Virus record (IMG/VR): IMGVR_UViG_3300025849_003104
Location: 1 to 42,278 of that record
Length of the DNA: 42,278 bases
From: a virus
Direction: 5' to 3' (one strand)
Shown one piece after another: positions 3,431-38,128 of this stretch. The translations under genes and the position numbers were made by a program. How positions within the stretch are numbered: the first letter of the stretch is position 1; each line of letters starts with the position of its first letter. Below the pieces are notes generated by a model. It did no database searches. It was not told where the DNA came from and worked only from the letters and a program-made list of their open reading frames with translations.

Positions 3431-3439
3431 CCTAACATA

Positions 3440-3471
3440 CTAATATACGAAAAATAAATGAGAAATCCAAA
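3440..3471 (-). promoter_or_regulatory. Candidate Bacteroidota-type sigma-A promoter P1
   Basis: On the minus strand TTTG (3471-3468) is followed after exactly 20 bases by TATATTAG (3447-3440), which fits the Bacteroidota -33 TTTG and -7 TAnnTTTG pattern at 7 of 8 positions. The block is nearly identical to the promoter at 27326-27357, and its right half (ATTTTTCGTATATTAGTA) is identical to that at 29129-29146. Expected transcription start is only a few bases before the ATG at 3430, so the transcript may be almost leaderless. Confidence 0.65.
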
Positions 3472-3487
3472 TAAAAAGTGAATTATT

Positions 3488-4914: not shown

Positions 4915-5562
4915 TTAAATCTTGTGTTTTATGTGTTGGTATATAGCAGTACCAATATCTTCACCCAATCTTGAATCAGATGGGAAATGTGCTCTTCCTA
5001 TATTTCTACTATATGATATTCTTTTACCTGCTTCTAAAAAAGCATCTGTATTGATTGGTAATTTTGTTTGTAATACTTTTCCTACCAAGATACCTTGTGT
5101 AGAATGACCAGAAGGGTAAGAAGGGGTTTTCATACTTTCAAGTACGTGCTCACCCAATTTCATATTATAGTGTGATGCTAATTGAAATGGTCTTGGTCTA
5201 TTATGGTGATATTTTAAATCTAAAATTATACCTGCTGCTGAATTGATTAGATTTTCTACTAACTCTTTTGGGTATTCTACGTTGTTTTCTTTACAAACTT
5301 GTTCGAATACTTTTTCGATATCATCGTTTTCTTCAACATATTTATCATCTTCTGGTAAATCTTTCAGAAATTGTAGTTCATTATAAACTATCATTGAAGT
5401 ATTTTTTGGAGGAGATTTTACTTTGTATTTAGAGTAATTAAAATCTTTGAATAAACCATCTTTAATGGATTCAATCTTTTTCGCATGTTTTTTCTTAACA
5501 CCATCTTTGGTGTAAACAGAATCTTTAATACTTCCGAGATTTTCTTCTGTGAATATAAACAT
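4915..5562 (-). CDS. PAP2-superfamily acid phosphatase
   Basis: A soluble PAP2/vanadium-haloperoxidase-type phosphatase of 215 residues. All three signature motifs are visible: KYHHNRPRP (KX6RP-like, about residues 117-125), PSYPSGHS (about 147-154) and SRNIGRAHFPSD (SRX5HX3D, about 184-195). The conserved Lys, Arg, two His and Asp are all kept, so it should be active on phosphomonoesters. There are no membrane helices and no clear signal peptide, unlike lipid-phosphatase members. Related genes occur in marine T4-like phages; its role could be phosphate scavenging or altering a phosphorylated host metabolite, which is inference. Confidence 0.85.
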   Translation of the reverse strand: MFIFTEENLGSIKDSVYTKDGVKKKHAKKIESIKDGLFKDFNYSKYKVKSPPKNTSMIVYNELQFLKDLPEDDKYVEENDDIEKVFEQVCKENNVEYPKELVENLINSAAGIILDLKYHHNRPRPFQLASHYNMKLGEHVLESMKTPSYPSGHSTQGILVGKVLQTKLPINTDAFLEAGKRISYSRNIGRAHFPSDSRLGEDIGTAIYQHIKHKI

Positions 5563-5828: not shown

Positions 5829-6197
5829 TTACTCTACGATTATAAACGTTGATTTTATAACCGTATCACTTAATATTAATTGAAGTTCTAACTTTTTCTT
5901 GGGTAATACTTTGATGTAAAGAGTTTTATCATTCATTCCAATACCATTTTTTGGTAGAAAGGTTTCTTTAGATAATATAGAATTAGTTTCTAAATCTTTT
6001 ATAGCAAGAGTATGTTCTCCATCTGATTCTATATTGAAGAATATCGTTTGATTATCAACTACTGAACTTTGAGTTACAGCAAAGATTCTATCTTCCCTTG
6101 GGATAGAAACACCACCCTCATCTATGAAATCTTTTTCACAAGCTAAGAACAAAAAGAATAGCCAAAAATAATATCGTTTTTGAAATTTATAACTCAT
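5829..6197 (-). CDS. Surface lipoprotein, paralogue of the 12361-12732 protein
   Basis: A 122-residue lipoprotein. A hydrophobic signal ends in FLFLAC, giving a lipidated Cys near residue 20 followed by EKDF, which partly matches the X-K-(D/E)2 surface-export signal described for Capnocytophaga. The rest is a small beta domain (SDGEHTLAIKDLETNSILS onward) that aligns by eye with the lipoprotein at 12361-12732. It overlaps the PA14/cohesin gene before it by 4 bases (ATGA), mirroring the order of the other pair. This suggests that each lipoprotein anchors or matures its secreted partner. That role is inference. Confidence 0.75.
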   Translation of the reverse strand: MSYKFQKRYYFWLFFLFLACEKDFIDEGGVSIPREDRIFAVTQSSVVDNQTIFFNIESDGEHTLAIKDLETNSILSKETFLPKNGIGMNDKTLYIKVLPKKKLELQLILSDTVIKSTFIIVE

Positions 6198-8287
6198 TTT
6201 ACAATTACCCCTATTTGTGTTCCATCCTTTTTAACTAACTCTACCTTTAATACAGAAACTAAACCTAAGAATGAAGTCAAGTTATTTTCTTCCTTAAAGT
6301 ATATTTTATATTCAGTACCACCATTTAGGTTCTGAGAACCATCAGTAGATATTGAACCCAATTTTACATAAGAAGTTCTTTTTGCTGAGAAGGATTGTAA
6401 ATCAGAATCACTTTCTAATCTATCAAAGATTACTCTACTATTATCATATCCTACTCTAAATTCAGAACCAGTTATGTTTTTTGTATTTTCTGGTACTTTT
6501 ATAGTTACAACAATTTCTTCACCAATCTTTTCAATATCTAAATCTACTTCAAACTGATTTTGTATGGATTTTGAAGAATTACTTATTGTCATATTATTCC
6601 TTGCCATACTTGTAACTTGTACACTTGATGGTAAATGAGAATGAGACATATTAACATCACCCTTCCAATGTACTGCAATACTTTTATCATATTGTTTTGT
6701 ACCAGTTGCTAATCCAAGTGGGAACATTGTACGAGTTCCACCATAGTTTGTCCAATTTGTTGATGTCATAGATTCATAATCAGTTACCTCTGTTAATGAC
6801 ATTACTGCTGCAAGATAAGATGCATCGAACAAAGTTCCACCATTTAAGAAATCAATCATTATCTGTGTATCCTTAAAATCAAATACTCCATCTCTACTTA
6901 CATCTGCATTTGCATATTGAACATTGTAATCAAACTCTCCCTTAAATCCACCATTGATTCCACCACCTGCTAATTCGTTAAATGCTAACACAACATCTGC
7001 TACTGTGAATACATCATCTACCATCGTTTCTAATTCAGTTGTTGATGGTGAATCAAAAACTACATATTGAGTTTTATATGAGGTTACTTCAGTAAAGTTT
7101 AATTCTACTTTTAGTGCATGGTAACCACTAGCACTTCTAATATTTGAAGAATAATTTGATGATGAAAATGGAATTGTACTCCAAGTATAATAATTAAAGT
7201 TATTCCAATACTGGTCTGATGTTGTAGTTGCCCAATAATTTGCATAACCTGGTGTTCCAAAATAACTTGATGTTCCATCTGTATCTACTAAATCTAATAG
7301 TTCTATATTATTAACATCATCTAAATCTACACCACTTGGAAACTCTCTAACATCTAAACCAATTCGGTATCTGTATTTATTAGTTACCATTGGTGAATAT
7401 ATTACAACCCATTCTACATTTCCTGGTGTTGCTGTAATATTATATTTTCCATTACCGACTAATGTTTCATCTATTTGAGAGTTGATTGTTGCTTCACCAT
7501 TTGCATCTAATGAGATTGTATTTGAGTTTGAGTTTTTAGCAATTTCAGATGAAGATACTTCGTAATAAGTATTAACAGAAAAACCAGTTTCATCAATGTT
7601 TCTAAACTTATAGTTTACATCATATGAAAGGGGTTCAACATAATCATCTGCATCGATACTCCATATAGTATTACCATTAAAAGCATATGCTGCTCCTGCT
7701 GCTGTATCTTCTGGTGATTTCCATTTAAGGTATAAGTTAGCTCCTCCTGCTCCTTGTTCATATCTAACTCTAAACTTATATGATACATCTGCTGTTAAAT
7801 TAGCTATATCAACTGTTCTGGTTCCATTACCCATACCAATACCGGTATTAGTAATTGTTCCATCATCATTTGCATCAAACCAAAAATCACTTCTATCATC
7901 TGAGTTTAACTGGAATGAATAAGTACCTGATGTTGGTGGTACAAAATAACCTTCTATTATCCAACCAAAGTTACTATTATCATGTCTTGGTAGAATATTA
8001 GACCAAGGCCAAGTAAATGCTTTAGTTGCTGTATCTCTACCTTGATGTGTCCAAGTAGTGGTATTTTTGTTAGCATAATCAAACATAGCATCAAAACCAG
8101 CTGAATTGGTTGGATGTGCATCATACTCACTTTGATTATTATTACTAGCATAATCATTAATCTTAAATGATTTATACGTTATTGCATTTTGTCCATCATT
8201 TGCAACTGTGTTTACAAATGTAGGGTCTGATTGTTGGCCTAATAATAAGGTTGGTAATAATAGCAATATTGATAATAACTTCTTCAT
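6194..8287 (-). CDS. Secreted PA14 protein with dockerin-like and cohesin-like segments
   Basis: A 697-residue secreted protein. The signal peptide ends LLLGQ. Residues about 95-215 form a PA14-type domain (EGYFVPPTSGTYSFQLNSDD, then DFWFDANDDGT), a fold that usually binds carbohydrate with calcium. Residues about 456-482 (NADVSRDGVFDFKDTQIMID) look like one half of a type I dockerin calcium loop, and residues about 578-697 resemble a cohesin domain (GSEFRVGYDNSRVIFDRL). No Por-type (T9SS) C-terminal domain is visible. The C-terminal half is paralogous to the 12737-14425 protein. Probable cell-surface or extracellular protein exported by the CsgG-like channel of this cassette; the export route is inference. 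Confidence 0.8.
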   Translation of the reverse strand: MKKLLSILLLLPTLLLGQQSDPTFVNTVANDGQNAITYKSFKINDYASNNNQSEYDAHPTNSAGFDAMFDYANKNTTTWTHQGRDTATKAFTWPWSNILPRHDNSNFGWIIEGYFVPPTSGTYSFQLNSDDRSDFWFDANDDGTITNTGIGMGNGTRTVDIANLTADVSYKFRVRYEQGAGGANLYLKWKSPEDTAAGAAYAFNGNTIWSIDADDYVEPLSYDVNYKFRNIDETGFSVNTYYEVSSSEIAKNSNSNTISLDANGEATINSQIDETLVGNGKYNITATPGNVEWVVIYSPMVTNKYRYRIGLDVREFPSGVDLDDVNNIELLDLVDTDGTSSYFGTPGYANYWATTTSDQYWNNFNYYTWSTIPFSSSNYSSNIRSASGYHALKVELNFTEVTSYKTQYVVFDSPSTTELETMVDDVFTVADVVLAFNELAGGGINGGFKGEFDYNVQYANADVSRDGVFDFKDTQIMIDFLNGGTLFDASYLAAVMSLTEVTDYESMTSTNWTNYGGTRTMFPLGLATGTKQYDKSIAVHWKGDVNMSHSHLPSSVQVTSMARNNMTISNSSKSIQNQFEVDLDIEKIGEEIVVTIKVPENTKNITGSEFRVGYDNSRVIFDRLESDSDLQSFSAKRTSYVKLGSISTDGSQNLNGGTEYKIYFKEENNLTSFLGLVSVLKVELVKKDGTQIGVIVK

Positions 8288-8295
8288 ACTAATAA

Positions 8296-10167
8296 TTATA
8301 ATGGAATTTTAGAACCTATCATAAATGAGTTTATTAAAGGTATGTTTATATCTGTTGATTTGATTGCAGTCCATCCTACATTGAATGAAAATCTATTTGT
8401 TACTTGTACTGTAAATGAGTTTGCTATAATTCCCATCCCATGAATTCGAGAACCTCTTAATGCATTCTCTAATTTAACACCAAAAGGATGTTCTTTATAA
8501 TAAGTTTTTTCTAAACCTACTCCACCTTCGTTACTCATAAATGGAGTCTGTGTCCAAATGATTGCTGGTGAATAAGTTATACGAGTACCTATTTGAAATG
8601 ATTTAGTTGCAAGTACATTATATGATACCATAAAGTTTTCTTTGATTGGATATGATACAAATGTACTTCCAATTGATAATCCAGCTCCAACTGTTAACCC
8701 ATTCTCAAAAGGCTTCATTAGAGATTGTGATAACATTAAAGTTGAGTATCCATAGTTATTAGAATATCCAATAGAAGTTGCTTTTATATTTTTTACTTTA
8801 TAATCTTCAGTCATGTTAACTTTAGAACGAGCACCCATAAAAGTTATTTGTTGTAAGTTATCATAAACCATTACGTTTGCTGAATATGCAACATCACCAT
8901 AGATTGAACTACGAGATGCTCCTATATTAAGAACTGCGTTGTAGAATCCAAGAGGTGATTGTTGTGATAATACATCTGCCTTTAATTGAATTGGCATAAA
9001 TTTCTTTTCTTCCTCTTCTTCCTCTTCTTCAGATTCCTCTTCACTTTCTTCTTCAGATTCTTCTTCAGACTCCTCTTCTTCCTCTTCACTTTCTTCTTCG
9101 GATTCTTCTTCAGATTCTTCAGATTCCTCTTCGGATTCTTCTTCACTTTCTTCTGATTCTTCTGATTCTTCTGATTCTTCTTCTGAACTTTCTTCTTCAC
9201 TTGATTCTTCTTCTGAGCTTTCTTCTGATGATTCTTCTTCACTTGATTCATCACTACCTTCATCAGAATCGCTATCGGAATCAGAATCGCTATCGGAATC
9301 AGAATCAGAATCAGAATCGCTATCGGAATCTCCACTAGAATCATCATCACCCCCACCATCGGAATCACCATCTCCACCAGAATCATCACTTCCACTATCG
9401 GAATCACCACTTGAATCAGAGTCTCCACTTGAATCAGAGTCTCCACTTGAATCAGAGTCTCCACTTCCACTATTATCTACATCTCCACTTCCCGAATCAT
9501 CCGAACTACCGCCCGATGTTCCTTCTGACGAGTTATCTGACGAGTTGTTCGAGCTTGAATCCGAGCCAGAGTTCGAGTCCGTTCCACCTGACGTATCTCC
9601 TCCGCTACTTCCCGAAGAGCCGGAATCCCCTCCACTACTACCACCGGAAGAATTGTTATTATTACTTGAGTTACCATTGCTTGTTCCTCCACTTGAATTA
9701 TTAGTTGAACTACTACCACTTGTTCCACTTGTACCACTTGTTCCACTTGTTCCACTTGTACCAGTTGTTGTTGTTTGTGTTGTACCAGTTGTTGCTCCTT
9801 GAGTTGCATTTGTTGCATTATTTGCTGCATTAGATGCTGCATTAGATGCTTGAGTTGCTTGATTCTGAGCTTGAGTAGCTTGATTTTGTGCGTTTTGAGT
9901 TTGTTGAGTTGTTGAAGAACATGGAGATAAGTTTGTCCACCATGCATAGGTTTCTCCTAACCACGAGTGTAATTCACCATTAAGGAATTCTTGGTATGTA
10001 AACACTCTAACTCTATTGTAGAAAGATACTACTGCACTACCTGTTGTAAAGTTTGCCGTAACAACTTTTACTTCGTTAGTACATCTATCTACAAATGTTT
10101 GTGTAAATACCTGTCCATAAGTGAAACTACTTACGAATAAGAATAAAGATATAAGGAGCTTTTTCAA
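8296..10167 (-). CDS. Secreted Ser/Asp/Glu-rich protein with barrel-like C-terminal domain, CsgG-associated
   Basis: A 623-residue protein in three parts. First, a signal peptide (ending FTYGQ) and a short conserved N-domain with two Cys (residues about 19-80, FTQTFVDRCTNEVKVVTANF). Second, a very long low-complexity linker (about 83-388) that grades from Gln/Asn/Ala to Thr/Gly/Ser, then Ser-Asp, then Ser-Glu repeats. Third, a C-terminal domain (391-623) of alternating beta strands, ending IGSKIPL, which looks like an outer-membrane barrel. The start is TTG at 10167, chosen because AGGAG stands six bases upstream; no ATG is available in frame. I recall the same architecture next to CsgG-like genes in uncultured marine phages (unchecked). 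Likely partner or cargo of the CsgG-like channel. Confidence 0.8.
   Translation of the reverse strand: MKKLLISLFLFVSSFTYGQVFTQTFVDRCTNEVKVVTANFTTGSAVVSFYNRVRVFTYQEFLNGELHSWLGETYAWWTNLSPCSSTTQQTQNAQNQATQAQNQATQASNAASNAANNATNATQGATTGTTQTTTTGTSGTSGTSGTSGTSGSSSTNNSSGGTSNGNSSNNNNSSGGSSGGDSGSSGSSGGDTSGGTDSNSGSDSSSNNSSDNSSEGTSGGSSDDSGSGDVDNSGSGDSDSSGDSDSSGDSDSSGDSDSGSDDSGGDGDSDGGGDDDSSGDSDSDSDSDSDSDSDSDSDSDSDEGSDESSEEESSEESSEEESSEEESSEEESEESEESEESEEESEEESEESEEESEEESEEEEEESEEESEEESEEESEEEEEEEEKKFMPIQLKADVLSQQSPLGFYNAVLNIGASRSSIYGDVAYSANVMVYDNLQQITFMGARSKVNMTEDYKVKNIKATSIGYSNNYGYSTLMLSQSLMKPFENGLTVGAGLSIGSTFVSYPIKENFMVSYNVLATKSFQIGTRITYSPAIIWTQTPFMSNEGGVGLEKTYYKEHPFGVKLENALRGSRIHGMGIIANSFTVQVTNRFSFNVGWTAIKSTDINIPLINSFMIGSKIPL
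9003..9920 (-). repeat. Low-complexity repeat tract coding the Ser/Asp/Glu linker
   Basis: Tandem degenerate hexamer- and nonamer-like repeats (GATTCT/TCTTCN types on the plus strand, with GAATCAGAATCGCTATCG-type runs near 9270-9330 and four ACTTGAATCAGAGTCTCC-like units near 9410-9460). They encode the linker of the 8296-10167 protein. Such repeats are prone to length change by slippage, so the linker length is likely to vary between relatives and to be fragile in short-read assembly. Confidence 0.8.
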
Positions 10168-10182
10168 TCATTTCTCCTCTCT

Positions 10183-10899
10183 TTAGTTTTCAAATATTCT
10201 TTTTCGTATCATTCTAGCTACAATTCGAGCTGAAGCGGTTTCCAACGCTTTTCTGGTAGATACTCCAATTGCTGACTGTCTGAACTTTATTTCATCCAAA
10301 TCTAGCCCCAGCAAACCCTCTTGAGTCTTTACTGTATTTGCAGTACCAAGACCAGAGCCTACAAAGTATGTGCCATTCTCTGCGTTAGTAAACCTAACTT
10401 GCAACCCTAAACGAGTTGTTTGTGTTTGTTTAGAACCATCTTTAAGTGATAAAACTTCATCTTCTGAAACAGAGAAATCATATATCTCTATTGTAACGAA
10501 ATATTCTGCTAACTTAATTTTACCTAATCCATATACTTGATTCTCTGAAACACCTTTTCTTGAAGCAACCCATTGTGATTTCATTCTATCTTTGATTGCA
10601 GATTTTTCTTCTACGAATTCAAATCTGTTTGTCCAATCTAAATACTCTATTACGATGTTAGTAAGACCTAAACCTACTCTACCATCTCTTAACTCAGGAT
10701 ACATCTCATATAAATCATCAGATATACCAACGTTGAGTAGAGCTACTGGTATCATATCTCCCCAATAATCCGAAACATCATCTATTGATTTTTTCTTTTC
10801 GAATTCAGCAACATATTCTTCAGCCTTAACCTTACCAATCGTTTGTGAAAATGATGTTAGTGTGAATAACATCAAAACTATTGTTGTGATTAATCTCAT
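10183..10899 (-). CDS. csgG: CsgG-like curli secretion channel protein
   Basis: A 238-residue CsgG-family protein. CsgG forms a nonameric outer-membrane channel that exports curli subunits. Seen here: an N-terminal signal (ending LTSFSQ), the family-typical segment GLTNIVIEYLDWTNRFEFVE near residue 80, alternating strands through the middle that could supply the transmembrane hairpins, and a C-terminal helix (STRKALETASARIVARMIR). Unlike E. coli CsgG there is no lipobox Cys. An AAGGAT Shine-Dalgarno-like sequence lies before the ATG, inside a small upstream gene with which it shares an ATGA overlap. CsgG-like genes are known in marine T4-like phages; their role there is unsettled. Confidence 0.8.
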   Translation of the reverse strand: MRLITTIVLMLFTLTSFSQTIGKVKAEEYVAEFEKKKSIDDVSDYWGDMIPVALLNVGISDDLYEMYPELRDGRVGLGLTNIVIEYLDWTNRFEFVEEKSAIKDRMKSQWVASRKGVSENQVYGLGKIKLAEYFVTIEIYDFSVSEDEVLSLKDGSKQTQTTRLGLQVRFTNAENGTYFVGSGLGTANTVKTQEGLLGLDLDEIKFRQSAIGVSTRKALETASARIVARMIRKRIFEN

Positions 10900-11000
10900 T
10901 TCTTATCCTTCATGTGTTTGGTTAACATAGGGTACATATTATACACTCCATCACTTAACCACTTATCAAATTTAATAAATAATTGTATAATTTTTTTCAT
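10896..11000 (-). CDS. 34-residue basic peptide gene coupled to csgG
   Basis: A short reading frame, ATG 11000 to TGA 10896, coding MKKIIQLFIKFDKWLSDGVY followed by NMYPMLTKHMKDKK. It begins 8 bases after the stop of the membrane protein gene before it and its TGA overlaps the csgG ATG (ATGA), so it fills an otherwise unexplained gap exactly and would couple translation into csgG. The peptide is amphipathic and basic. No family is recognised. Support is positional and compositional only. Confidence 0.5.
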   Translation of the reverse strand: MKKIIQLFIKFDKWLSDGVYNMYPMLTKHMKDKK

Positions 11001-11008
11001 ATTTGTTT

Positions 11009-11200
11009 TTAGCCCAAAGTATCAAAAATGCCAAATGTAGCATTTTGGATATCAGCTTCTCCAGATACAATACCCCAAACGAGTCCTGCAATACCTAATA
11101 CAACCATTATCAATAATGTTGCAATCCATACTTTTAGTATGATATCCATCCATTTGTAATCTGATACTGGTTCCATAAAAATAGCCTTTAAAGTTTCCAT
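11009..11200 (-). CDS. Small single-pass membrane protein of the secretion cassette
   Basis: A 63-residue protein with one strong membrane helix (VWIATLLIMVVLGIAGLVWG, about residues 25-47) between an N-terminal amphipathic stretch (METLKAIFMEPVSDYKWMD) and a short acidic C-terminus. A good Shine-Dalgarno (GGAGAG) lies just upstream of the ATG. With the next two genes it forms a run of small membrane proteins beside csgG. A holin-like or channel-accessory role is possible but unproven. Confidence 0.7.
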   Translation of the reverse strand: METLKAIFMEPVSDYKWMDIILKVWIATLLIMVVLGIAGLVWGIVSGEADIQNATFGIFDTLG

Positions 11201-11221
11201 AATCTCTCCTTTTTATATAAA

Positions 11222-11542
11222 TTATTGTTTTTTACTATAAGCTTGTGTTCCAAAGAACGCCGCTACTATTGCTGCAACTGAAACAAAATAGGTTGCTGCC
11301 ATATCACCTAATATTTTAGATGCCTGGTCCAATCCTATTACATCTGCAAGTACTACTGCGAATGGATAAAGTAACATACCAAATAAAGCGAACCATGCCA
11401 TCTTTCTTTGAGCATCTCTCATTGCATCTTGGTCATCGAGTTCTTTTCTCTTAAACTCAAGATACATTGCTTCTTCTGCTTTTGAAACTTTTCCATCCCC
11501 ATTTGTATCAGCAGGATGTATTTGTTTTTTTACTTCTTCCAT
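11222..11542 (-). CDS. EF-hand protein with two membrane helices
   Basis: A 106-residue protein. Residues about 8-28 form a canonical EF-hand loop (HPADTNGDGKVSKAEEAMYL) with Asp, Asn, Asp, Lys, Ser, Glu at the expected calcium positions. A charged helix follows, then two hydrophobic segments (about 48-68 and 84-102). The architecture, a calcium sensor joined to a small two-helix membrane anchor, suggests calcium control of a membrane process. I recall similar proteins in CsgG-bearing marine phages (unchecked). Possible holin-like function; not determinable from sequence. Confidence 0.75.
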   Translation of the reverse strand: MEEVKKQIHPADTNGDGKVSKAEEAMYLEFKRKELDDQDAMRDAQRKMAWFALFGMLLYPFAVVLADVIGLDQASKILGDMAATYFVSVAAIVAAFFGTQAYSKKQ

Positions 11543-11543
11543 A

Positions 11544-11834
11544 TTACCAATCTATTTCCTCTTCTTTTTCTTTTTTCTTTACTTTAGGTTTAATATATAC
11601 TTTTTTTACAACTGTATCTTTCTTTTGTTCTGGTATGATAACATTAATAGTAGGTCCTTCAACATTTACATTTTGTTCTTGAACTACTTCTACTGCTGAT
11701 TCACTATCTTCAATACCAATGAACGATTTTACCTCATCCATAAACAAACCCCCAAGGCCGGTGAGGATTACTCCTACACCAGCTATGATTTGGTTTTTTA
11801 GTTGTCCGAAAAATCCTTGTTTTTCTTTACTCAT
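11544..11834 (-). CDS. Small membrane protein with charged C-terminal tail
   Basis: A 96-residue protein with an N-terminal membrane segment (IIAGVGVILTGLGGLFM, about residues 13-30), an acidic middle, a beta-like stretch (NVEGPTINVIIPEQ) and a very basic then acidic tail (YIKPKVKKKEKEEEIDW). A GGAGA Shine-Dalgarno eight bases before the ATG supports the start. It lies two bases upstream of the EF-hand gene in the transcript. It might serve as a periplasm-spanning link or a holin-like protein; neither is shown by a motif. Confidence 0.7.
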   Translation of the reverse strand: MSKEKQGFFGQLKNQIIAGVGVILTGLGGLFMDEVKSFIGIEDSESAVEVVQEQNVNVEGPTINVIIPEQKKDTVVKKVYIKPKVKKKEKEEEIDW

Positions 11835-11837
11835 AAG

Positions 11838-12338
11838 TTAGTCTCCATCTGTTGTTATTGGTGTCTGGTCAGGTGCACATCCTACCCCATCTACATTATT
11901 AATATCTGCAATTGGTGTATCTGGACATTGGTCTAATCCATTCATAACTCCATCATAGTCATAGTCAGCAACAAATACTAACATTGCTATACCTTCAGAA
12001 ACTTGTGCTACTCTATCTCTTAGAGTTGCAACTTGTTCTGCAGATGCCCAATTTTGTGCATCTTCCAAGATACCTTCTAACCTTAATTTAATTTCCGCCA
12101 TTTTTGCTACGGCTTCCTCCATGGCAGCATTCTGTTCTTCAACAGTTACTTCCATTTGTTCTACTTGCAATTGCATTGTTGCCACATCGCTTATCATTCC
12201 ATCAACATCTACTAATAGTAGTGAAGCTTCTAACTCTGCTAATGATGCTGTTAGAGATTCCAACCCATCTTCCATAGAAGGATTAGTACAACTTGTAATA
12301 AATGTTAGAATTAATAATAGTGATAACATCTTTTTCAT
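11838..12338 (-). CDS. Coiled-coil lipoprotein with TSP3-type calcium repeat
   Basis: A 166-residue lipoprotein: signal with lipobox (LTFITSC, Cys near residue 17), a long heptad-rich coiled coil (about residues 25-125, LTASLAELEASLLLVDVDG onward), then a thrombospondin type 3-like calcium repeat (DYDYDGVMNGLDQCPDTP ... NNVDGVGC, about 126-158) with two Cys placed as in TSP3 units. TSP3 repeats are common in Bacteroidota OmpA-like proteins, where they link membrane and periplasmic parts. Residues after the lipidated Cys lack the surface-export signal. An AAGGA precedes the ATG. A periplasmic or trimer-forming scaffold of the secretion cassette is plausible. Confidence 0.8.
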   Translation of the reverse strand: MKKMLSLLLILTFITSCTNPSMEDGLESLTASLAELEASLLLVDVDGMISDVATMQLQVEQMEVTVEEQNAAMEEAVAKMAEIKLRLEGILEDAQNWASAEQVATLRDRVAQVSEGIAMLVFVADYDYDGVMNGLDQCPDTPIADINNVDGVGCAPDQTPITTDGD

Positions 12339-12360
12339 AATCTTTTGTCCTTTTTAATTT

Positions 12361-12732
12361 TTACTGATTAACGAAAACCGTTCTTCCTATTACATTGTGA
12401 TTAACATCTGTTAATTCAAGTGTAAAAGAAGATTTATCTAAACTACTGGTATAAACAGAAAGAATATTATCTCCCTCTTGTGCAGTAAGTTTTTCTTGTG
12501 AAATCAAAGAGTTATCAATATCTCTTATCTTCACTCTATATGTTCCATCGTTAGGTAACTTTACATTCATTCGTACCTCACTTGAAACAATTGTATTTTC
12601 TAATTTAATTCCTACCAATTCATCCATTAGAAGTGTATCTGGTACTTCACTAACGAATACAGGTTCCATTATATCATCTTTCATACAAGATGTTAATGTT
12701 AATAATACTAAAAGTGTTAATAGTTTTTTCAT
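12361..12732 (-). CDS. Surface-export-signal lipoprotein paired with cohesin-like protein
   Basis: A 123-residue lipoprotein. The lipobox LTLTSC is followed by MKDDI, an exact match to the X-K-(D/E)2-X lipoprotein export signal that sends lipoproteins to the cell surface in Capnocytophaga and relatives. A small beta domain follows (GTYRVKIRDIDNSLIS near residue 63) that aligns by eye with the 5829-6197 lipoprotein. It begins 4 bases after the stop of the cohesin-like gene. The pair looks like a secreted protein plus its surface anchor or partner (inference). Confidence 0.8.
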   Translation of the reverse strand: MKKLLTLLVLLTLTSCMKDDIMEPVFVSEVPDTLLMDELVGIKLENTIVSSEVRMNVKLPNDGTYRVKIRDIDNSLISQEKLTAQEGDNILSVYTSSLDKSSFTLELTDVNHNVIGRTVFVNQ

Positions 12733-12736
12733 ATCT

Positions 12737-14425
12737 TTATTCCATGTTTAATTTTATTTGTGTTCCATCTGCCTTAACACCTTCGTTAACCTTGAATGAG
12801 ATTAAACCTGATGTATTACTCAACTCAACCAATGGTGTGAATATTAGCTGATATGGAGTACCTGTTTTTACAGTTTTTTCAAACTGTTGGTCAAATGAAC
12901 CTATGTTTATTTTTCCTTCTTCTTCTTTGTGGTTAGCGAAATTAGTCATTTCGTTACCAGTATCAAATACTACGTTCTTTAATTCTAATCTTGTATCATC
13001 ATATACAATGTTAAATTGTGTTCCAATCATACCAGTTACTTCTGAATTTATTGAAAAGATTACCTCACCATCTACTATTTGAGATACCAAATCAACATTT
13101 TGTTGGATTGGATTGTATCTTGCACTTGATGCAAGAGGTGCAGAATTACTAATATTCATTGAACTAATTTGGAAATCACTTGATGCAGCTGGTTGATATG
13201 AGTGTGAGAAGTTAACATCACCTATAAGAACATGAGCAAACTCAAATGATTTGTTAGAGTCAGTTGGTTTGAAAGTTGCATCTAAGTTAGCTAAATAACT
13301 TCCATTTGAATCTACTGTACCAAATATTGATTTAGTACCACCACTCTGTACTGCCCCATTTTTCTTAGAAATGTAGTTAGAGTTTCCACTTGTTACACCC
13401 TGTAAGTGAGCAAGTATTTCATATGAATCTGAAAAATTTATCACCCCATCAAATGGTGAATCATGTATTACGTTTGCCAAGAATGTTTGAATATGGTAAT
13501 CAAACGTTGTTGATGAACCATTTGGTGAAGAACCTGCTCCGATTGCTTCAGCAAATACCAATGCTAAATCAGATACAGTTACTACGTTATCCATATAATC
13601 TTTAGAACCATCTACAAAGTTCCAAACAAAGTATTCCGTATCATTTTCTAAACCGCTTATAGTTGCTTCACCTGATGCATCATAGTTACCTGTTGCAACA
13701 ACTGATGCTCCTTGATTTACTTGATTACCCTCACCGATATCTGATTTAAGGTAAACGTTGTAAAGATAATCTGTACCATCTATTAGTGAATTATCTATTG
13801 CTTTACTGAATATTTTAAGTGTTACACTTCCTGCATCACCACCTGTGATACCAGTTAAACTTAAACCAGTTCCATTATCTACCTTACCTTCTACTGCTAT
13901 TTCAGTTCCATCATCCTTTTTAAGATAACCCCAGTTCATATTTAATAGGTTAGAATAATCTGAATAACCTGTACTTGCTTTATCTTTAATAATAAAGTTA
14001 TACTCCATCCAACCATCATTATTACCAAATGCAGTTACATCTTGAATAGTGATTCTTTCTACTGAAAAATCTGAGTTTGAACCATAGACAGTACTACCTG
14101 CTACATAATCTGCATACTCACCATCTATATCTTGAGTTGCAGTGTTATTACCCCACTTATACCCATTCCATGAGTTGTAAGCTTTTTGAGCCGTATTTGA
14201 GGATATAACCCAATTTCTCGAATCTAACGATAATAGTTTGTTGTTGTACTGAAAATCAAACTGAGTAAGTTTTGCAGTTCCAGCCGTACCTGAATACACT
14301 ATTTCAAGTTTAAGTGTATCACCAACTTTGGAAACTGTGTTTCCTTTGTTGATTTTAATTGTTTCTTGACCATACGAGAAGAATGCACCAAGAACAAATA
14401 ATAATGTTAATAATTGTTTTTTCAT
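12737..14425 (-). CDS. Secreted protein with two cohesin-like segments and a dockerin-like segment
   Basis: A 562-residue secreted protein (signal ends FFSYGQ). Residues about 22-190 resemble a cohesin-type beta sandwich (VGDTLKLEIVYSG ... FDFQYNNKLLSLDS). Residues about 312-345 contain a dockerin-like stretch (DSPFDGVINFSDSYEILAHL). Residues about 438-562 are a second cohesin-like domain (GTQFNIVYDDTRLELKNVVF) closely paralogous to the C-terminus of the 6194-8287 protein. It starts with a 4-base ATGA overlap on the preceding gene. Cohesin-dockerin pairs bind each other in a calcium-dependent way in cellulosomes; here both are on one chain, so self-assembly is conceivable. Domain calls are by eye. 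Confidence 0.75.
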   Translation of the reverse strand: MKKQLLTLLFVLGAFFSYGQETIKINKGNTVSKVGDTLKLEIVYSGTAGTAKLTQFDFQYNNKLLSLDSRNWVISSNTAQKAYNSWNGYKWGNNTATQDIDGEYADYVAGSTVYGSNSDFSVERITIQDVTAFGNNDGWMEYNFIIKDKASTGYSDYSNLLNMNWGYLKKDDGTEIAVEGKVDNGTGLSLTGITGGDAGSVTLKIFSKAIDNSLIDGTDYLYNVYLKSDIGEGNQVNQGASVVATGNYDASGEATISGLENDTEYFVWNFVDGSKDYMDNVVTVSDLALVFAEAIGAGSSPNGSSTTFDYHIQTFLANVIHDSPFDGVINFSDSYEILAHLQGVTSGNSNYISKKNGAVQSGGTKSIFGTVDSNGSYLANLDATFKPTDSNKSFEFAHVLIGDVNFSHSYQPAASSDFQISSMNISNSAPLASSARYNPIQQNVDLVSQIVDGEVIFSINSEVTGMIGTQFNIVYDDTRLELKNVVFDTGNEMTNFANHKEEEGKINIGSFDQQFEKTVKTGTPYQLIFTPLVELSNTSGLISFKVNEGVKADGTQIKLNME

Positions 14426-14922
14426 TTTAGTAAGTCCTTAATAATTGCTTCTAATACTTTCTTTAACGAGTTAGAAGCCGTTTGTTGATTAAATGTTCCA
14501 TCTGATGCAACCACTAAAGTAGAAGTAGAGATTTCTTTACTACTTCCTTTTTGAGTAGTTCTTTTCTTTACTTTCCCTTTAATTTCTAACTCACCTATTG
14601 CTATAATCTGAGTTAGTGATACTTTATTATGGTAAATACCAATTGATTTACCTATATTTTTGACATCAAAAAATACCAACCTTATGTTGATTTTTGTGTC
14701 TGAGTTTTCCGATAAGTCGTAATCTAAATCTAAAAGAAGTTCTTCTAAGATATTTCGAACTCCATAGGCCATAGAGGGATTGCCCGCGAAAGGTCCAACT
14801 CTAATTTCGTTGGTTATCTTGCCGATTGAAATATAGTCATCTTGTTCTAGGTTTGAAGAGGATGAGGATTGTAACAACATCAACGCTAAACCTAATAAGA
14901 TAATCTTTGCAAAAGTTTTCAA
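14422..14922 (-). CDS. Exported CsgG-cassette protein, first gene of the secretion operon
   Basis: About 166 residues from a TTG start at 14922. An upstream ATG at 14949 exists, but the TTG has a perfect AGGAG six bases before it and gives a proper signal peptide (LKTFAKIILLGLALMLLQ), whereas the ATG adds nine polar residues. The mature part has NEIRVGPFAGNPSMAYGVRN and NILEELLLDLDYDLS, then strands and a C-terminal helix, like small periplasmic lipoproteins of outer-membrane complexes but with no lipobox. I recall homologues in marine phages with CsgG (unchecked). It leads the operon that ends at 5829. Function unknown; a channel assembly factor is possible. Confidence 0.7.
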   Translation of the reverse strand: MKTFAKIILLGLALMLLQSSSSSNLEQDDYISIGKITNEIRVGPFAGNPSMAYGVRNILEELLLDLDYDLSENSDTKINIRLVFFDVKNIGKSIGIYHNKVSLTQIIAIGELEIKGKVKKRTTQKGSSKEISTSTLVVASDGTFNQQTASNSLKKVLEAIIKDLLK

Positions 14923-14995: not shown

Positions 14996-15047
14996 AAAGT
15001 AACAAGTTTCTATAACATATTCCATTATAAATATAATGTGACTATAC

Positions 15048-15072
15048 AAAAAAACCCACTTTCGTGGGTTTT
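15048..15072 (-). terminator. Rho-independent terminator of the glycan operon
   Basis: Minus strand: AAAACCCAC, GAAA tetraloop, GTGGGTTTT, then a run of T. It is a perfect 9-bp stem starting four bases after the stop of the gene at 15077, closing the 15077-26382 operon and insulating the secretion cassette. Confidence 0.9.
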
Positions 15073-27304: not shown

Positions 27305-27325
27305 AATACTTTATCTTTTACTATG

Positions 27326-27357
27326 TAAAGATACGAAAAATAAATGATAAATCCAAA
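27326..27357 (-). promoter_or_regulatory. Candidate Bacteroidota-type sigma-A promoter P2
   Basis: TTTG (27357-27354), 20 bases, then TATCTTTA (27333-27326). Except for two changes it repeats a stretch of 31 bases of promoter P1 at 3440-3471, including the shared GGATTT.TCATTTATTTTT spacer. The predicted start lies about 15 bases before the nuclease ATG at 27304. Confidence 0.7.
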
Positions 27358-27360
27358 TAT

Positions 27361-29108: not shown

Positions 29109-29128
29109 CTGTTTTAAAATTTATATTA

Positions 29129-29160
29129 CTAATATACGAAAAATATTTGAATTATCCTAA
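29129..29160 (-). promoter_or_regulatory. Candidate Bacteroidota-type sigma-A promoter P3
   Basis: TATATTAG (29136-29129) preceded by the shared ATTTTTCG block; the 18 bases ATTTTTCGTATATTAGTA equal those of P1. At the -33 position (29160-29157) the sequence is TTAG rather than TTTG, so this is a weaker match. The ATG at 29108 is about 20 bases downstream. Confidence 0.55.
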
Positions 29161-29927: not shown

Positions 29928-30874
29928 AATATCTCTTTTTTATATATAGTATTGTGATTAAAAATATCTGATACAATTGATAAGTTATTGTATATTTTAT
30001 CTAAATTATTTTTGTAATATTCTATTACCCATTCCATACTCTTTTCGTTTACTTCGTTTACACACTTTGAAAATTTATCAACTCTATGAATTGACTCATT
30101 ATCATATTCATCAGCATCATCAAATCCAAACTCTATATTTGGAATCCAAAATCCTAATTTTTCTAAATCCTTTATTAAATGTTTTTGACCAAATATTAGA
30201 GGTATATTACCAGTCAAAAATGCTAGAATAGATTTTTCAGTAAATGAATTAAATGTTCTATCTCCATGATTTGTTTCACATATAAATGAAAAATAAGTAG
30301 ATTTATATTCGTTAATCAATTCAGACCATTCAACTGATTTATCTCCAATTTCAGTAAATACATTATTGTATCTAAAAATATCAATTTTACTTGTATCTAT
30401 TTTTGATACTAACAAATCTCTAACTAAACTTTTTCTATTTACTGAGAATATTGATTTTTTTGATTTATACTCTAAAAAATTAGGTTTATTTGTATAAAGA
30501 GATTTATCAAAAATGTTAGTCCTATTTTTCATTTGAGTTGGATTATTATTTACTGAAATCGTACTGTATTTCCAATGTAACATATGTGTAAAAGGATGTG
30601 CACCAAATATAACTTCTTTAGATGCGGTACTTTGTACTATTCTTATATCTCTGTTTAATTTCTTTATAAACTCTACTAAATTAGTATAAAGATTCTTTTC
30701 ATCTATTACTTCATGTTGAAAAATAAGTAAAAAAATCTTTTCATTTCTTGATTTTAATTCAATATTATTAAATAACTTTTCAATATTTAAATCTTCATAT
30801 TGATTTATAAAGATATATTTTTTTCTGTAATAACAATTTTGTTCTTCATTTACAATATCAGTTATTAATTTCAT
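29924..30874 (-). CDS. GT10-like (fucosyltransferase-type) glycosyltransferase
   Basis: A 316-residue GT-B-like protein. The C-terminal donor-site segment STYFSFICETNHGDRTF then SFTEKSILAFLTGNIPLIFG (about residues 193-230) corresponds to the GT10 fucosyltransferase/exostosin pattern (Glu, TEK, P.I..G). The N-terminal half (FLLIFQHEVIDEKNLYTNLV) is less conserved. No signal or membrane segment. It is the promoter-distal end of the SGNH block, overlapping the first SGNH gene by 17 bases. Fucose or a related sugar is plausible but not proven. Confidence 0.7.
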   Translation of the reverse strand: MKLITDIVNEEQNCYYRKKYIFINQYEDLNIEKLFNNIELKSRNEKIFLLIFQHEVIDEKNLYTNLVEFIKKLNRDIRIVQSTASKEVIFGAHPFTHMLHWKYSTISVNNNPTQMKNRTNIFDKSLYTNKPNFLEYKSKKSIFSVNRKSLVRDLLVSKIDTSKIDIFRYNNVFTEIGDKSVEWSELINEYKSTYFSFICETNHGDRTFNSFTEKSILAFLTGNIPLIFGQKHLIKDLEKLGFWIPNIEFGFDDADEYDNESIHRVDKFSKCVNEVNEKSMEWVIEYYKNNLDKIYNNLSIVSDIFNHNTIYKKEIL

Positions 30875-31829
30875 TCGAATTATTTATAAATCTTATTATT
30901 GAATCTGCTATAATTTTGTGTCCATATTTAGATGGGTGTAAATTATCACACCAAGGATATAGAGTATTTAAATAAAAATCAGTATCCCATTCGTTTGAAA
31001 GAGATGTTTCCTTCTCGTTTTTATAAATAGGTATAGTTCTATTTTTTATCTTTTTAATTATATCAGAATCATCCATTTTATCAAGTAATTCTGCATCCAT
31101 TTCATTCCAATGAGATATAAAATAATAAGGTATATTTAAATTATCTAATTGCTCAGTATATTTTTTATAGTATAGTTTTGTAATACCTTCAATCCAACCA
31201 TCCCAATTTTTGAAAAAATCTTGTAGTTTTTGTGCATCTTTTAAAGATATAAATTTTATACCTCCATTTATTTGAGAGGTCATATGACCAAACAAATATT
31301 TTTCTTCTGTAAATGTTTTTTTACCATCAGTAGAATGTTCCCATTTTAAGAATAATTCATTTAAAAAAGATATTATAGTTTTACCGTCATATCTATAATC
31401 TAAAATATCTATATCGAATGTGTTTTTAAAAAAATCAAATAAATATGTTGATTCATCTCGTGTGGGTGAGGTTAGGTTTATGATTGCTACTGAAAATTCA
31501 TCCTTACCAAATTTTTCTATACATTTATTTATAAATCCTATTGCGGTACTTTGACTACCACCATTCCAAAATTTTCTAAATCCAAGAGTATCATAATAAT
31601 TTGATACCAACGCTGGATAAGATAATTCATATCTTAATTTTCCTGCAGGGAGGATGTTTTCTGAAAAATCACTCCACTTATGCCATCTATATCCTAAATC
31701 ATCACCTGTTTTATTTAGGTTTTTCATTTGCATACATTTCTTGTAAACAATTTCACGATATCTATCATCATGAAGTTCAAGTCCCTCTCCAAAAGTAAAT
31801 GAATCACCTGTAAATATTATTGGTTTCAT
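30858..31829 (-). CDS. SGNH-like protein, tandem copy A
   Basis: A 323-residue SGNH-type protein. Block I MKPIIFTGDSFTFGEGLELH has the nucleophile Ser; a GGSQS block is near residue 92; and the C-terminal block CDNLHPSKYGHKIIADS keeps the catalytic Asp (three residues before His) and His. It therefore has a complete triad. It shares its N-terminus with copies B and C and a 49-base identical DNA stretch with copy B (31782-31830). Predicted to hydrolyse or transfer an acyl group on a surface glycan. Confidence 0.8.
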   Translation of the reverse strand: MKPIIFTGDSFTFGEGLELHDDRYREIVYKKCMQMKNLNKTGDDLGYRWHKWSDFSENILPAGKLRYELSYPALVSNYYDTLGFRKFWNGGSQSTAIGFINKCIEKFGKDEFSVAIINLTSPTRDESTYLFDFFKNTFDIDILDYRYDGKTIISFLNELFLKWEHSTDGKKTFTEEKYLFGHMTSQINGGIKFISLKDAQKLQDFFKNWDGWIEGITKLYYKKYTEQLDNLNIPYYFISHWNEMDAELLDKMDDSDIIKKIKNRTIPIYKNEKETSLSNEWDTDFYLNTLYPWCDNLHPSKYGHKIIADSIIRFINNSNEINN

Positions 31830-32776
31830 GAAAATTCTTGTTTTAAAAAATTAGTTACTGAATCTGATATAATCTCATGTAATAATTTTGAAGGATGGTT
31901 GTTTTGTGTCCATTTGAATTCATCAGATATCCACAAGTTATCTTTTTTAGGTAATTCACATAAACTATTATATGATGTATTTACTAACTTAATAGGTATA
32001 ATTTTATTTTTTATATAATCTACAACATCTTGTTCTGATATTGTTTTAAAAATTTCATTATCTAAATCATTCCAATGACCTATTATATAAACAGGTATAT
32101 TTATTTTCTTAATTATATTAATCATTTTACGATATGTTCTTAAATGCATATCGTACTCAAATTTACTATGTAAACCGTATATTTGCTGTAATTTTATTGC
32201 ATTATCTATTGATATTGTATTTTTAAAAAATTCATTAAATTCGTTAGGATGTTGTTCGAATGGTGCATTTTTAAATTTATAATCCCAATTAAACCAATAA
32301 TACATAAAATTAGATAATGATGAATGATAATTACAATTAATTCCATGTTCGTTTCGTAAATATTTTTTACCCGATTGAAAGTCATCTCTATTCATACCAG
32401 TTAAATTTAATACTATACAAGAAAAGGTTTCACTAGAATTTGATTCTAATATTTCATTTATAAAATCAAATGCTTCAATATTATCACCTCCATTTACTCC
32501 TTTAGAAAAAAATAAAGTATTTAGATTTTCTGAAACTAGTGTTGGAAATTTGTATTTATGTCTGATTATAGATGATGTACCTCCATATGACATATGTTCA
32601 AACCTTGGCCAATTGTAGTAATAATGGTTTGGAACGTTTGAATGTATCTCATTTCCATCAGAATCTACCTCTGGTATCTTGGTTAATGATTTTATATAAC
32701 TTCTATATCTTTCATCATACAACTCCAATCCCTCTCCAAAAGTAAATGAATCACCTGTAAATATTATTGGTTTCAT
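31826..32776 (-). CDS. SGNH-like protein, tandem copy B, catalytic Asp replaced
   Basis: A 316-residue paralogue of copy A. It begins with 18 identical residues (MKPIIFTGDSFTFGEGLE), has NGGDNIEAFDF as the second block and IIKKINIPVYIIGHW in the core. In the C-terminal block the sequence is WTQNNHPSKLLHEIISDS: the His is kept but the position three residues before it is Gln, not Asp. Either the triad is completed by another residue or the copy is catalytically altered. ATGA overlaps on both sides. Confidence 0.75.
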   Translation of the reverse strand: MKPIIFTGDSFTFGEGLELYDERYRSYIKSLTKIPEVDSDGNEIHSNVPNHYYYNWPRFEHMSYGGTSSIIRHKYKFPTLVSENLNTLFFSKGVNGGDNIEAFDFINEILESNSSETFSCIVLNLTGMNRDDFQSGKKYLRNEHGINCNYHSSLSNFMYYWFNWDYKFKNAPFEQHPNEFNEFFKNTISIDNAIKLQQIYGLHSKFEYDMHLRTYRKMINIIKKINIPVYIIGHWNDLDNEIFKTISEQDVVDYIKNKIIPIKLVNTSYNSLCELPKKDNLWISDEFKWTQNNHPSKLLHEIISDSVTNFLKQEFS

Positions 32777-33759
32777 GTGTATATTTGTTTTAAGTAAGAT
32801 GAAACTGATTTTCCTATATATTCGTGCATTTTTTTAGTTGGATGCATATTTGATGTCCATGGAAATTCTTTATGTATCCATATATTAGAATATGGTAAAA
32901 AATTTTCATATACAATATTATCGTAAAATTTATTTTCTACTTTAATTGGTATTATATTATCTATGATATTTTCTTTTATCTTAGAATCGTTCGATAGTTT
33001 TTTTAATATTATGTTATCATACTTTTCCCAATGTCCTATAAAGTAAAATGGTAGATTTGTTTTTTGAATTATTTCAATGATATTATAGTAATTTAAACGT
33101 TGCATTTCTAGTTCAAAGTTATCATGAGTTTTATATTCATCTTGAAGTATCTGTGCACTATTAATATCTATTGAATTAGAACCATTGAATATTCTACTAT
33201 ACTCAGACTCATTTTCTTTAAAAGTTTTATTACCATGTTCATGATTCCAAGTAAACCAATTTATCACAAACTTATTTAAACTAGAATTTTCATTTATGTG
33301 ATTATTATTTATTGTAAAATTTACATTTAAATTTTTATGTAACCATTTCTTAGAGTATTCCATATCATCCCTCCACATGCAAGTCATGTTCATAACGACA
33401 CATGAGAAATCTGAGGGTGAGTTTGTTTTTAATGTTCTATTTACAAAATTTAATGCACTATAAGTATTATATCCATTTTCTCCTGGTGAGAAATATGGAA
33501 CATCTAATGTTTCAGATACTATGGTTGAAAACCTTAATTTATTTCTAGTATTTGCTGCAGTACCTCCCCATGCCATTGGTTCAAATCTTGCCCAATTGTA
33601 ATAATAGTAATCTGCATATTTTGAATATACTTTATTTCCATCGGAATCTACCTCTGGTATCTTAGTTAATGATTTTACATGATTTTTATATGCATCATCA
33701 TATAACTCTAAACCTTCACCAAATGTAAATGAATCTCCTGTAAATATTATTGGTTTCAT
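32773..33759 (-). CDS. SGNH-like protein, tandem copy C, catalytic Asp replaced
   Basis: A 328-residue paralogue, closest to copy B (both have KIPEVDSDGN near residue 32). Block I is the same as in A and B; second block ENGYNTYSALNF; core TNLPFYFIGHW. The C-terminal block is WTSNMHPTKKMHEYIGKS with Ser at the position of the catalytic Asp. It joins neighbours by ATGA or 1-base overlaps. Like copy B it may have changed its catalytic chemistry or become a binding protein. Confidence 0.75.
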   Translation of the reverse strand: MKPIIFTGDSFTFGEGLELYDDAYKNHVKSLTKIPEVDSDGNKVYSKYADYYYYNWARFEPMAWGGTAANTRNKLRFSTIVSETLDVPYFSPGENGYNTYSALNFVNRTLKTNSPSDFSCVVMNMTCMWRDDMEYSKKWLHKNLNVNFTINNNHINENSSLNKFVINWFTWNHEHGNKTFKENESEYSRIFNGSNSIDINSAQILQDEYKTHDNFELEMQRLNYYNIIEIIQKTNLPFYFIGHWEKYDNIILKKLSNDSKIKENIIDNIIPIKVENKFYDNIVYENFLPYSNIWIHKEFPWTSNMHPTKKMHEYIGKSVSSYLKQIYT

Positions 33760-37817: not shown

Positions 37818-38128
37818 AATTAAATTTCCATTTTTATTTAAATTAAACATAACATATTCATACTACAAATCCTCCTTAATGAAATTATAGTAAATTTTAA
37901 TATTTTCGTGTATTGTATTTGTGCTTGTAAAGTTCCCCAGATTAGGGGTGTAAGTGCTATCACAACTTTCGTTGTTTGTAATGTCTTGTAGATTGTTCAT
38001 ATAAACCTGATTCATCTGTTAATAACTATTGTATATATCTAAAAAAGTGATTAAACTTCTTTAACTTTATGTTAACTTTTTCTTTATAATTGCCTAGTTT
38101 AGTAATGACTTTATTTCTGAGTATATCA
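37818..38128. promoter_or_regulatory. Leader region between gp44 and the TonB-dependent receptor
   Basis: This 311-base gap holds: a weakly supported 37-codon frame with TTG start (38139-38026); a 50-codon frame (38015-37863, listed separately); an AAGGAGGA Shine-Dalgarno (37870-37877) that points to an ATG at 37861 followed by only seven codons and a stop, not to the receptor start; and an inverted repeat CCCCTAATCTGGGG (37935-37948). No -33/-7 promoter of the P1 type was found. The layout suggests a translated leader before the receptor gene. Confidence 0.4.
37863..38015 (-). CDS. Possible 50-residue peptide gene upstream of the receptor
   Basis: ATG 38015 to TAG 37863 reads MNQVYMNNLQDITNNESCDS, then TYTPNLGNFTSTNTIHENIK and IYYNFIKEDL. 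It is hydrophilic, Asn/Thr-rich, without signal peptide, and unlike anything I recognise. Its final codons contain AAGGAGGA, the Shine-Dalgarno that then faces the mini-frame at 37861. No good ribosome site precedes its own ATG. Could be a real small gene or chance. Confidence 0.4.
   Translation of the reverse strand: MNQVYMNNLQDITNNESCDSTYTPNLGNFTSTNTIHENIKIYYNFIKEDL

Follow-up and report, generated by a model that had tools for sequence, protein, structure and literature searches.

We identified a phage-borne set of 12 co-directional genes, hereafter the cassette, on the minus strand (positions 5829-14922) of the IMG/VR virus record IMGVR_UViG_3300025849_003104, a 42,278-base stretch that was analyzed over its full length and is referred to here as the window. 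The cassette encodes a protein with a predicted CsgG fold, a predicted 12-stranded barrel, secreted proteins with cohesin and lectin-like domains, lipoproteins and small membrane proteins. It is carried by hundreds of viruses of Bacteroidota and is apparently previously undescribed; no description of such a cassette was found in the open-access literature, a coverage outside which most subscription journals lie. The explanation that we find best is that the cassette specifies a phage machine, probably late-expressed, by which infected Bacteroidota cells come to display a cohesin-dockerin scaffold bearing lectins; our confidence in it is about even. A fuller version, which we put forward with somewhat less than even confidence, is that this is an undescribed envelope machine of Bacteroidota phages with a self-polymerizing cohesin-dockerin lectin scaffold and two interchangeable anchors, namely a type IX secretion system (T9SS) sorting domain taken from the host or the same domain as a split-off surface lipoprotein. 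The gene set, folds, domain content, conservation and fused/separate exchange of the anchor on which this explanation draws were all computed, as set out below.

The phage of the window is classed as T4-like by the Pfam and PHROG matches of its other genes, which include T4-type clamp-loader proteins, GroES, exonucleases, glycosyltransferases and sulfotransferases; the PHROGs gave no strong named match to the cassette proteins of the window. The cassette genes are closely packed, with intergenic spacing of -4 to +22 bases, and an intrinsic terminator at 15072-15048 separates them from an upstream glycosyltransferase-like gene. The first gene has a TTG start at 14922, where the ribosome-site region (AAGGAG...TTTGAA) was found to be identical or near-identical in nine sequences. 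The initial annotation, made from the sequence alone, had described the twelve genes behind a terminator and the TTG start, and these were all found in place. It had also counted nine of the other genes as encoding exported or membrane proteins; the set is indeed rich in exported products, but the count was too low, as a signal peptide or membrane segment was clear in about ten cassette proteins, weak in the small protein tm96 and absent from the 34-aa product only.

The distribution of the cassette was examined by scanning for relatives of the CsgG-like protein, which were detected at 29 viral loci with a single sequence and at 584 or more (at least) with a profile. Across 84,980 bacterial species genomes there were only two CsgG-like matches, both on cassette-bearing contigs in Bacteroidota metagenome-assembled genomes (MAGs), and within the family of the Flavobacterium MAG the protein was present in 1 of 397 genomes, namely on the cassette-bearing contig; these counts disfavor a host origin. 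One cultured isolate, Flavobacterium phage vB_FspM_immuto, carries the module (54% identity), with gp013-gp019 including a C-type lectin, cohesin proteins, the CsgG-like and barrel proteins, and homologues of tm96 and of the small exported protein u175, so that the function of the module can be tested at the bench. When 18 CsgG clusters were compared (<80% identity, with 6 kb or more of flanking sequence on either side), a cohesin/lectin protein and the barrel were found in all 18, tm96 in 17 and u175 in 15; the cohesin/lectin protein was kept in 96 of 100 distinct loci. Comparison of cassette genes with their counterparts in the relative L001 gave dN/dS values of 0.03-0.50, with the minimum in the CsgG-like gene; all genes compared are thus under purifying selection. 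Because of this selection and the recurrence of the set in many divergent phages, the set is not a chance assembly, and the initial proposal of one set built around a CsgG-fold protein with exported proteins was borne out by its co-inheritance well beyond this contig.

The CsgG fold that had been claimed for one cassette protein was recovered by structure prediction. An AlphaFold2 (AF2) model, based on a shallow alignment of 24 rows (mean predicted local distance difference test [pLDDT] 74), had E. coli CsgG as its top matches by Foldseek (E about 1e-6) and was aligned by VIA to 4uv3 (CsgG) with a Z of 12.0 and a root-mean-square deviation (rmsd) of 3.9 over 169 residues, with Cj1090c, PelC, LptE and TraT ranked below CsgG. 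The modeled fold is thus that of CsgG. At the sequence level, (i) the family profile matched an alignment of CsgG from Flavobacteriaceae and E. coli weakly by hhalign (E 0.003, 80 C-terminal columns); (ii) a PDB sequence search with the profile returned nothing meaningful; and (iii) Pfam CsgG (PF03783), which matched the CsgG of the pelagiphage HTVC008M as a positive control (E 4.8e-53), had no match in the window and none listed for 13 CsgG-like family members. No lipobox Cys was found in 25 aligned members, whose signal peptides end in ...SFSQ, ...FAQ or similar. The protein had initially been viewed as an outer-membrane channel. The model has a long hairpin (residues 133-172), but the sequence of this segment is strongly charged (SEDEV...KDGSK). 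Since the first hairpin is hydrophilic and a lipid anchor is absent, the CsgG-like protein is unlikely to act as a channel of the curli type, and the predicted 12-stranded barrel is favored over it as the pore; with a separate barrel in all 18 clusters, the CsgG-like protein was downgraded as a membrane pore. The first gene product, u175, appears to be a relative of the CsgG-like protein (profile-profile probability 97.6 against the family).

The partner that may form the pore is a Ser/Asp/Glu-rich protein, correctly described at the outset as barrel-like. Its AF2 model (shallow alignment of 45 rows, mean pLDDT 66) predicts a 12-stranded translocator-type barrel at the C-terminus, with most strands at a pLDDT above 90, preceded by a disordered linker of 260 residues (126-385) of which 87% are Ser/Asp/Glu/Gly. 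Structurally, the barrel was closest to the translocator of the autotransporter NalP (Z 24.1, rmsd 2.6 over 231 residues); FapF, an exporter of functional amyloid, was found lower among the matches (Z 18.4). Both likewise have 12 strands and an N-terminal helix in or near the barrel, as modeled for the cassette protein; neither has the long acidic linker between helix and barrel, and the likeness is structural, without a demonstrated sequence relation. The barrel profile returned low-complexity matches only when compared with PDB sequences, and a CsgF-like role of the N-domain was rejected (hhalign probability 4). PelBC/CsgG rings offer a further parallel, with a CsgG/PelC fold at the outer membrane and, for PelC, a separate barrel as partner, as we propose for the cassette; the cassette differs in that its CsgG-fold protein is not lipidated, its barrel is of the 12-stranded autotransporter/FapF type and its cargo would be a cohesin/lectin protein. 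In four relatives (L070, L072, L080, and L087) an open reading frame (ORF) of 1600-1850 aa that is absent from the window lies immediately after the barrel gene.

A true curli (type VIII) system with unrecognized curlin subunits would account for the CsgG fold, yet has scarcely any likelihood: CsgG, CsgE, CsgF and the curlin repeat are absent from the Pfam families listed for the cassette proteins, hhalign matched none of the other cassette families tested to CsgE or CsgF of E. coli, and the lipobox is absent. Membership in the curli family was rejected on these grounds. Curli-like genes carried by phages are common in the sea (PMC7029224, PMC9004378, PMC9599517). The pelagiphage cluster of this type, HTVC008M gp014-gp019, is likewise a phage-borne CsgG-fold set with exported polymerizing proteins (PMC7029224, PMC9599517, PMC9004378), but it has true CsgG (PF03783), CsgF (PF10614) and curlin, which the cassette does not. 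The initial mention of CsgG in marine T4-like phages is therefore apt for these true curli clusters and does not carry over to the cassette, as HTVC008M has no detectable relative of any cassette family tested. A neighbor of CsgG in that phage, gp018 (L133:10638-11963), was found to carry a PA14 domain at its N-terminus and curlin repeats after it; the main text of PMC9599517 makes no mention of PA14. Two phage sets with no sequence relation detectable between the families tested would then combine a CsgG fold with an exported self-linking protein that bears PA14, and by analogy this speaks for a sticky coat on the cell surface rather than a pore serving lysis or uptake only. A second phage group with a CsgG fold and exported lectin-bearing self-linking proteins, here without curlin, points to sticky-coat display as the common aim.

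The candidate coat proteins are the two secreted cohesin-like proteins recognized in the initial annotation. The 562-aa protein matched PDB cohesin 4UMS by profile (E 5.7e-4, residues 455-510), and a family cohesin hidden Markov model (HMM) matched both proteins; neither had a match in phage isolates by tblastn. Among 68 cohesin/lectin family members, Pfam detected the cohesin domain in 29, the T9SS sorting domain in 22, C-type lectin in 14, dockerin in 7, PA14 in 6 and laminin-G in 5. The dockerin-like segments of the window proteins were matched by a within-family HMM (E 6.7e-11 and 5.6e-6), and the best Pfam dockerin match in relatives had an E of 2.5e-6. Cellulosome scaffolds likewise combine a cohesin domain of the 4UMS type with dockerin-like modules; the cassette proteins differ in being viral and lectin-bearing, in often carrying the cohesin and dockerin-like module on one chain and in having no enzymes seen with them in the window cassette. 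If the proposal is correct, the scaffold would be a virus counterpart of the cellulosome.

Anchoring of these proteins appears to follow two designs. The T9SS sorting domain (TIGR04183/PF18962) that is typical of T9SS substrates of Bacteroidota is shared by the cohesin proteins of immuto and other phages, and was found above curated cut-offs in immuto gp015, L017 and L026; the type A sorting domain is absent from the C-terminus of both window cohesin proteins, and the window-type domain is instead a separate lipoprotein with a surface signal. Three lipoproteins had been noted at the outset and are present, but two of them are reinterpreted here as relatives of the T9SS sorting domain with surface-export signals. 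This assignment rests on profile comparison: an HMM built from T9SS sorting domains only found members of the ~120-aa lipoprotein family (E 4e-4 to 8e-3), the profile-profile probability was 94.9, and the lipoproteins so found sit directly after cohesin genes that lack a fused sorting domain. The direct matches were other family members, the window lipoprotein at 12361-12732 being matched only after HMM iteration; the profile similarity is modest, and Ig-like folds resemble one another. When 100 distinct loci were classified, the sorting domain was fused in 44, a separate lipoprotein in 39, both in none and neither detected in 17, some of the last being incomplete or having unlabeled lipoproteins; the tree of loci requires at least two switches between fused and separate forms. 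The sequence C-X-K-(D/E)2 is a surface-export signal of Bacteroidota lipoproteins (PMC5080379). Signals of this type are CMKDD in the 12361-12732 lipoprotein and CQKDE, CVKDE, etc. in relatives, and CEKDF in the 5829-6197 lipoprotein is a partial signal with one acidic residue after K. Because the fused and separate forms were never found together in these loci and the lipoproteins bear surface-export signals, we suggest that the lipoprotein takes over from the sorting domain as the surface anchor of the cohesin protein. The two forms provide a natural experiment on how Bacteroidota anchor surface proteins and, if the proposal holds, the fused form would be, to our knowledge, the first example of phages that exploit the host T9SS to coat a doomed cell. 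The third lipoprotein, a coiled coil without a surface-export signal, probably faces the periplasm and, among L001-L030, was found only in the window, L001 and L002, all of which lack s176. The latter (e.g., L003:12515-13051) is a spanin-like protein of most close relatives, with a membrane anchor, a long periplasmic stretch and a C-terminal beta segment.

The upstream region was inspected for signals of expression timing. The motif TATATTTATA, a putative phage late promoter, occurs in 7 copies on the gene strand of the window, mostly in gaps before genes, and in none on the opposite strand. The form ATATTTAT is conserved ahead of the cassette in L001-L005 and L010. In L136 and, going by contig coordinates, in the record of L137, the same motif precedes a capsid scaffold-like gene; in these two relatives, some 95 to 150 bases separate it from the gene located upstream of the major capsid gene. 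As the motif is common to the regions upstream of the cassette and of capsid genes, the cassette is likely expressed late in infection. A second promoter type that resembles those of Bacteroidota hosts (TTTG ... TAnnTTTG-like) was seen in the gaps 3431-3487, 27305-27360 and 29109-29151; it is distinct from TATATTTATA and may mark early genes.

The initial annotation had also raised a late or lysis link, and this gains support from the motif shared with capsid genes and from the endolysin, holin-like and spanin-like neighbors of the cassette in relatives. An endolysin lies within 6 kb of the cassette in 11 of the 18 clusters and spanin-like genes in 6, and in L066, L082 and L102 the order is holin-like, spanin-like, GH19-type endolysin and then the cassette (the holin-like and spanin-like labels being based on size, membrane segments and position). 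These neighbors, and the lysis role proposed for pelagiphage CsgGF (PMC9004378), are what would be expected of an outer-membrane lysis module in which the CsgG-fold ring, the barrel and holin-/spanin-like partners breach the outer membrane and the cohesin/lectin proteins are accessory. We regard such a module as unlikely, as its most constant partners (lectins, cohesins and T9SS sorting domains) are not needed for lysis, and neither the window nor immuto has an endolysin adjoining the cassette: in immuto it is 8 kb away, and the families listed for the window outside the cassette include none.

Returning to the display of a cohesin-dockerin scaffold, we infer its export route, pairing, surface anchoring, timing and benefit as follows. 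Sec would carry the cassette proteins to the periplasm, where the CsgG-fold protein would probably form a ring against the outer membrane on its periplasmic side, like PelC or CsgG, and would build an outer-membrane export port together with u175 and the 12-stranded barrel. Cohesin/dockerin proteins with PA14, C-type or laminin-G lectin domains would reach the surface via this port or, in relatives with a sorting-domain-bearing cohesin protein, by the alternative route of the host T9SS. On the surface these proteins may interlink by cohesin-dockerin pairing and be held by lipoproteins that are flipped outward by their export signal and replace the T9SS sorting domain. The resulting coat would be adhesive and glycan-binding, and most likely would tether the dying cell and its progeny to neighbors or polysaccharide, or would mask surface glycans from adsorption.

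Masking may also be taken as the primary function, with surface lipoproteins and lectins covering glycans or receptors on infected cells or debris and thereby keeping off both progeny and competing phages (superinfection exclusion). The surface-export signals of the two lipoproteins are in keeping with this, as is a structural resemblance between the CsgG-like model and the exclusion lipoprotein TraT (Z 6.9), although a Z under 8 may reflect just a common arrangement; the glycosyl- and sulfotransferase genes that lie upstream of the cassette likewise suggest surface change. We nonetheless consider this reading improbable, since neither scaffold nor port would be required, the probable late expression is compatible with debris protection only, and masking is a possible outcome of the scaffold display rather than a separate machine. 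There is very little chance that the proteins are virion components, that is, lectin decoration of particles freed at lysis: lectin/PA14 domains could tether virions to polysaccharide and the cassette is probably late, but signal peptides and lipoboxes route the proteins away from the cytoplasm, where virions are assembled.

Several observations weigh against the display of a scaffold. The dockerin-like segments of the window are weak by Pfam (E 0.74) and otherwise matched within the family only, and the exit route of the window cohesin proteins, which lack the sorting domain, is inferred. The sequence homology of the CsgG-like protein to true CsgG is weak, and both AF2 models rest on shallow alignments. 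In L006 the putative late-promoter motif was not found ahead of the cassette. Furthermore, phages with the fused domain could rely on the T9SS for export of the cohesin protein, but they retain the CsgG-like protein and barrel, which may thus have another role.

Table 1. Features of the cassette and its upstream region in the window
Feature	Position	Strand	Basis
CsgG-fold protein (predicted), signal peptide, no lipobox	10183-10899	-	AF2 model, Foldseek, VIA
Barrel protein, 623 aa: N-terminal domain 20-80, helix 85-125, linker 126-385, barrel 394-622	8296-10167	-	AF2 model
u175, exported small protein, putatively CsgG-fold-related, 166 aa, TTG start	14422-14922	-	Profile-profile 97.6; start by conserved ribosome site
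Secreted 562-aa protein: two cohesin domains (32-89, 453-532), dockerin-like segment 324-352	12737-14425	-	HMM/profile matches
Secreted 697-aa PA14/GLEYA lectin-like protein: dockerin-like 450-513, C-terminal cohesin 589-667	6194-8287	-	Pfam, family HMMs
Lipoprotein, T9SS-sorting-domain-like, surface-export signal CMKDD	12361-12732	-	HMM, signal motif
Second lipoprotein of the T9SS-sorting-domain-like family, signal CEKDF	5829-6197	-	Family match, signal motif
Coiled-coil lipoprotein, CTNPSMED, no surface-export signal	11838-12338	-	Sequence reading
tm96, N-terminal hydrophobic segment, conserved C-terminal Trp, core member	11544-11834	-	17/18 clusters
EF-hand-like motif and two transmembrane segments, holin-like size/topology	11222-11542	-	Sequence reading
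63-aa single-pass membrane protein	11009-11200	-	Membrane-segment prediction
34-aa ORF, 3' end overlapping the CsgG-like start	10896-11000	-	52-76% identical in relatives; seen directly
Promoter-like motif TATATTTATA (putative phage late promoter)	15026-15035	-	Copies before genes
Intrinsic terminator, AAACCCAC-GAAA-GTGGGTTT and T-run	15048-15072	-	Direct reading; missed by simple pattern scan

Other genes of the window were also examined. A PAP2-type phosphatase (4915-5562), in which the KxxxxxxRP, PSGH and SRxxxxxHxxxD motifs were read directly, is retained after the cassette in close relatives, and one member of the scanned protein set matched PF01569. A full-length TonB-dependent receptor with plug, barrel and carboxypeptidase-regulatory domain is encoded at 35109-37850; it had no close homologue in phage isolates, and relatives (57-75% identical) adjoin the cassette in L008, L009, L011, L012, L013, L016 and L045. 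Three tandem paralogues starting with MKPIIFTGDSFTFGEGLEL, SGNH-hydrolase-like by eye, were found at 30858-33759, with a further one at 2068-2883.

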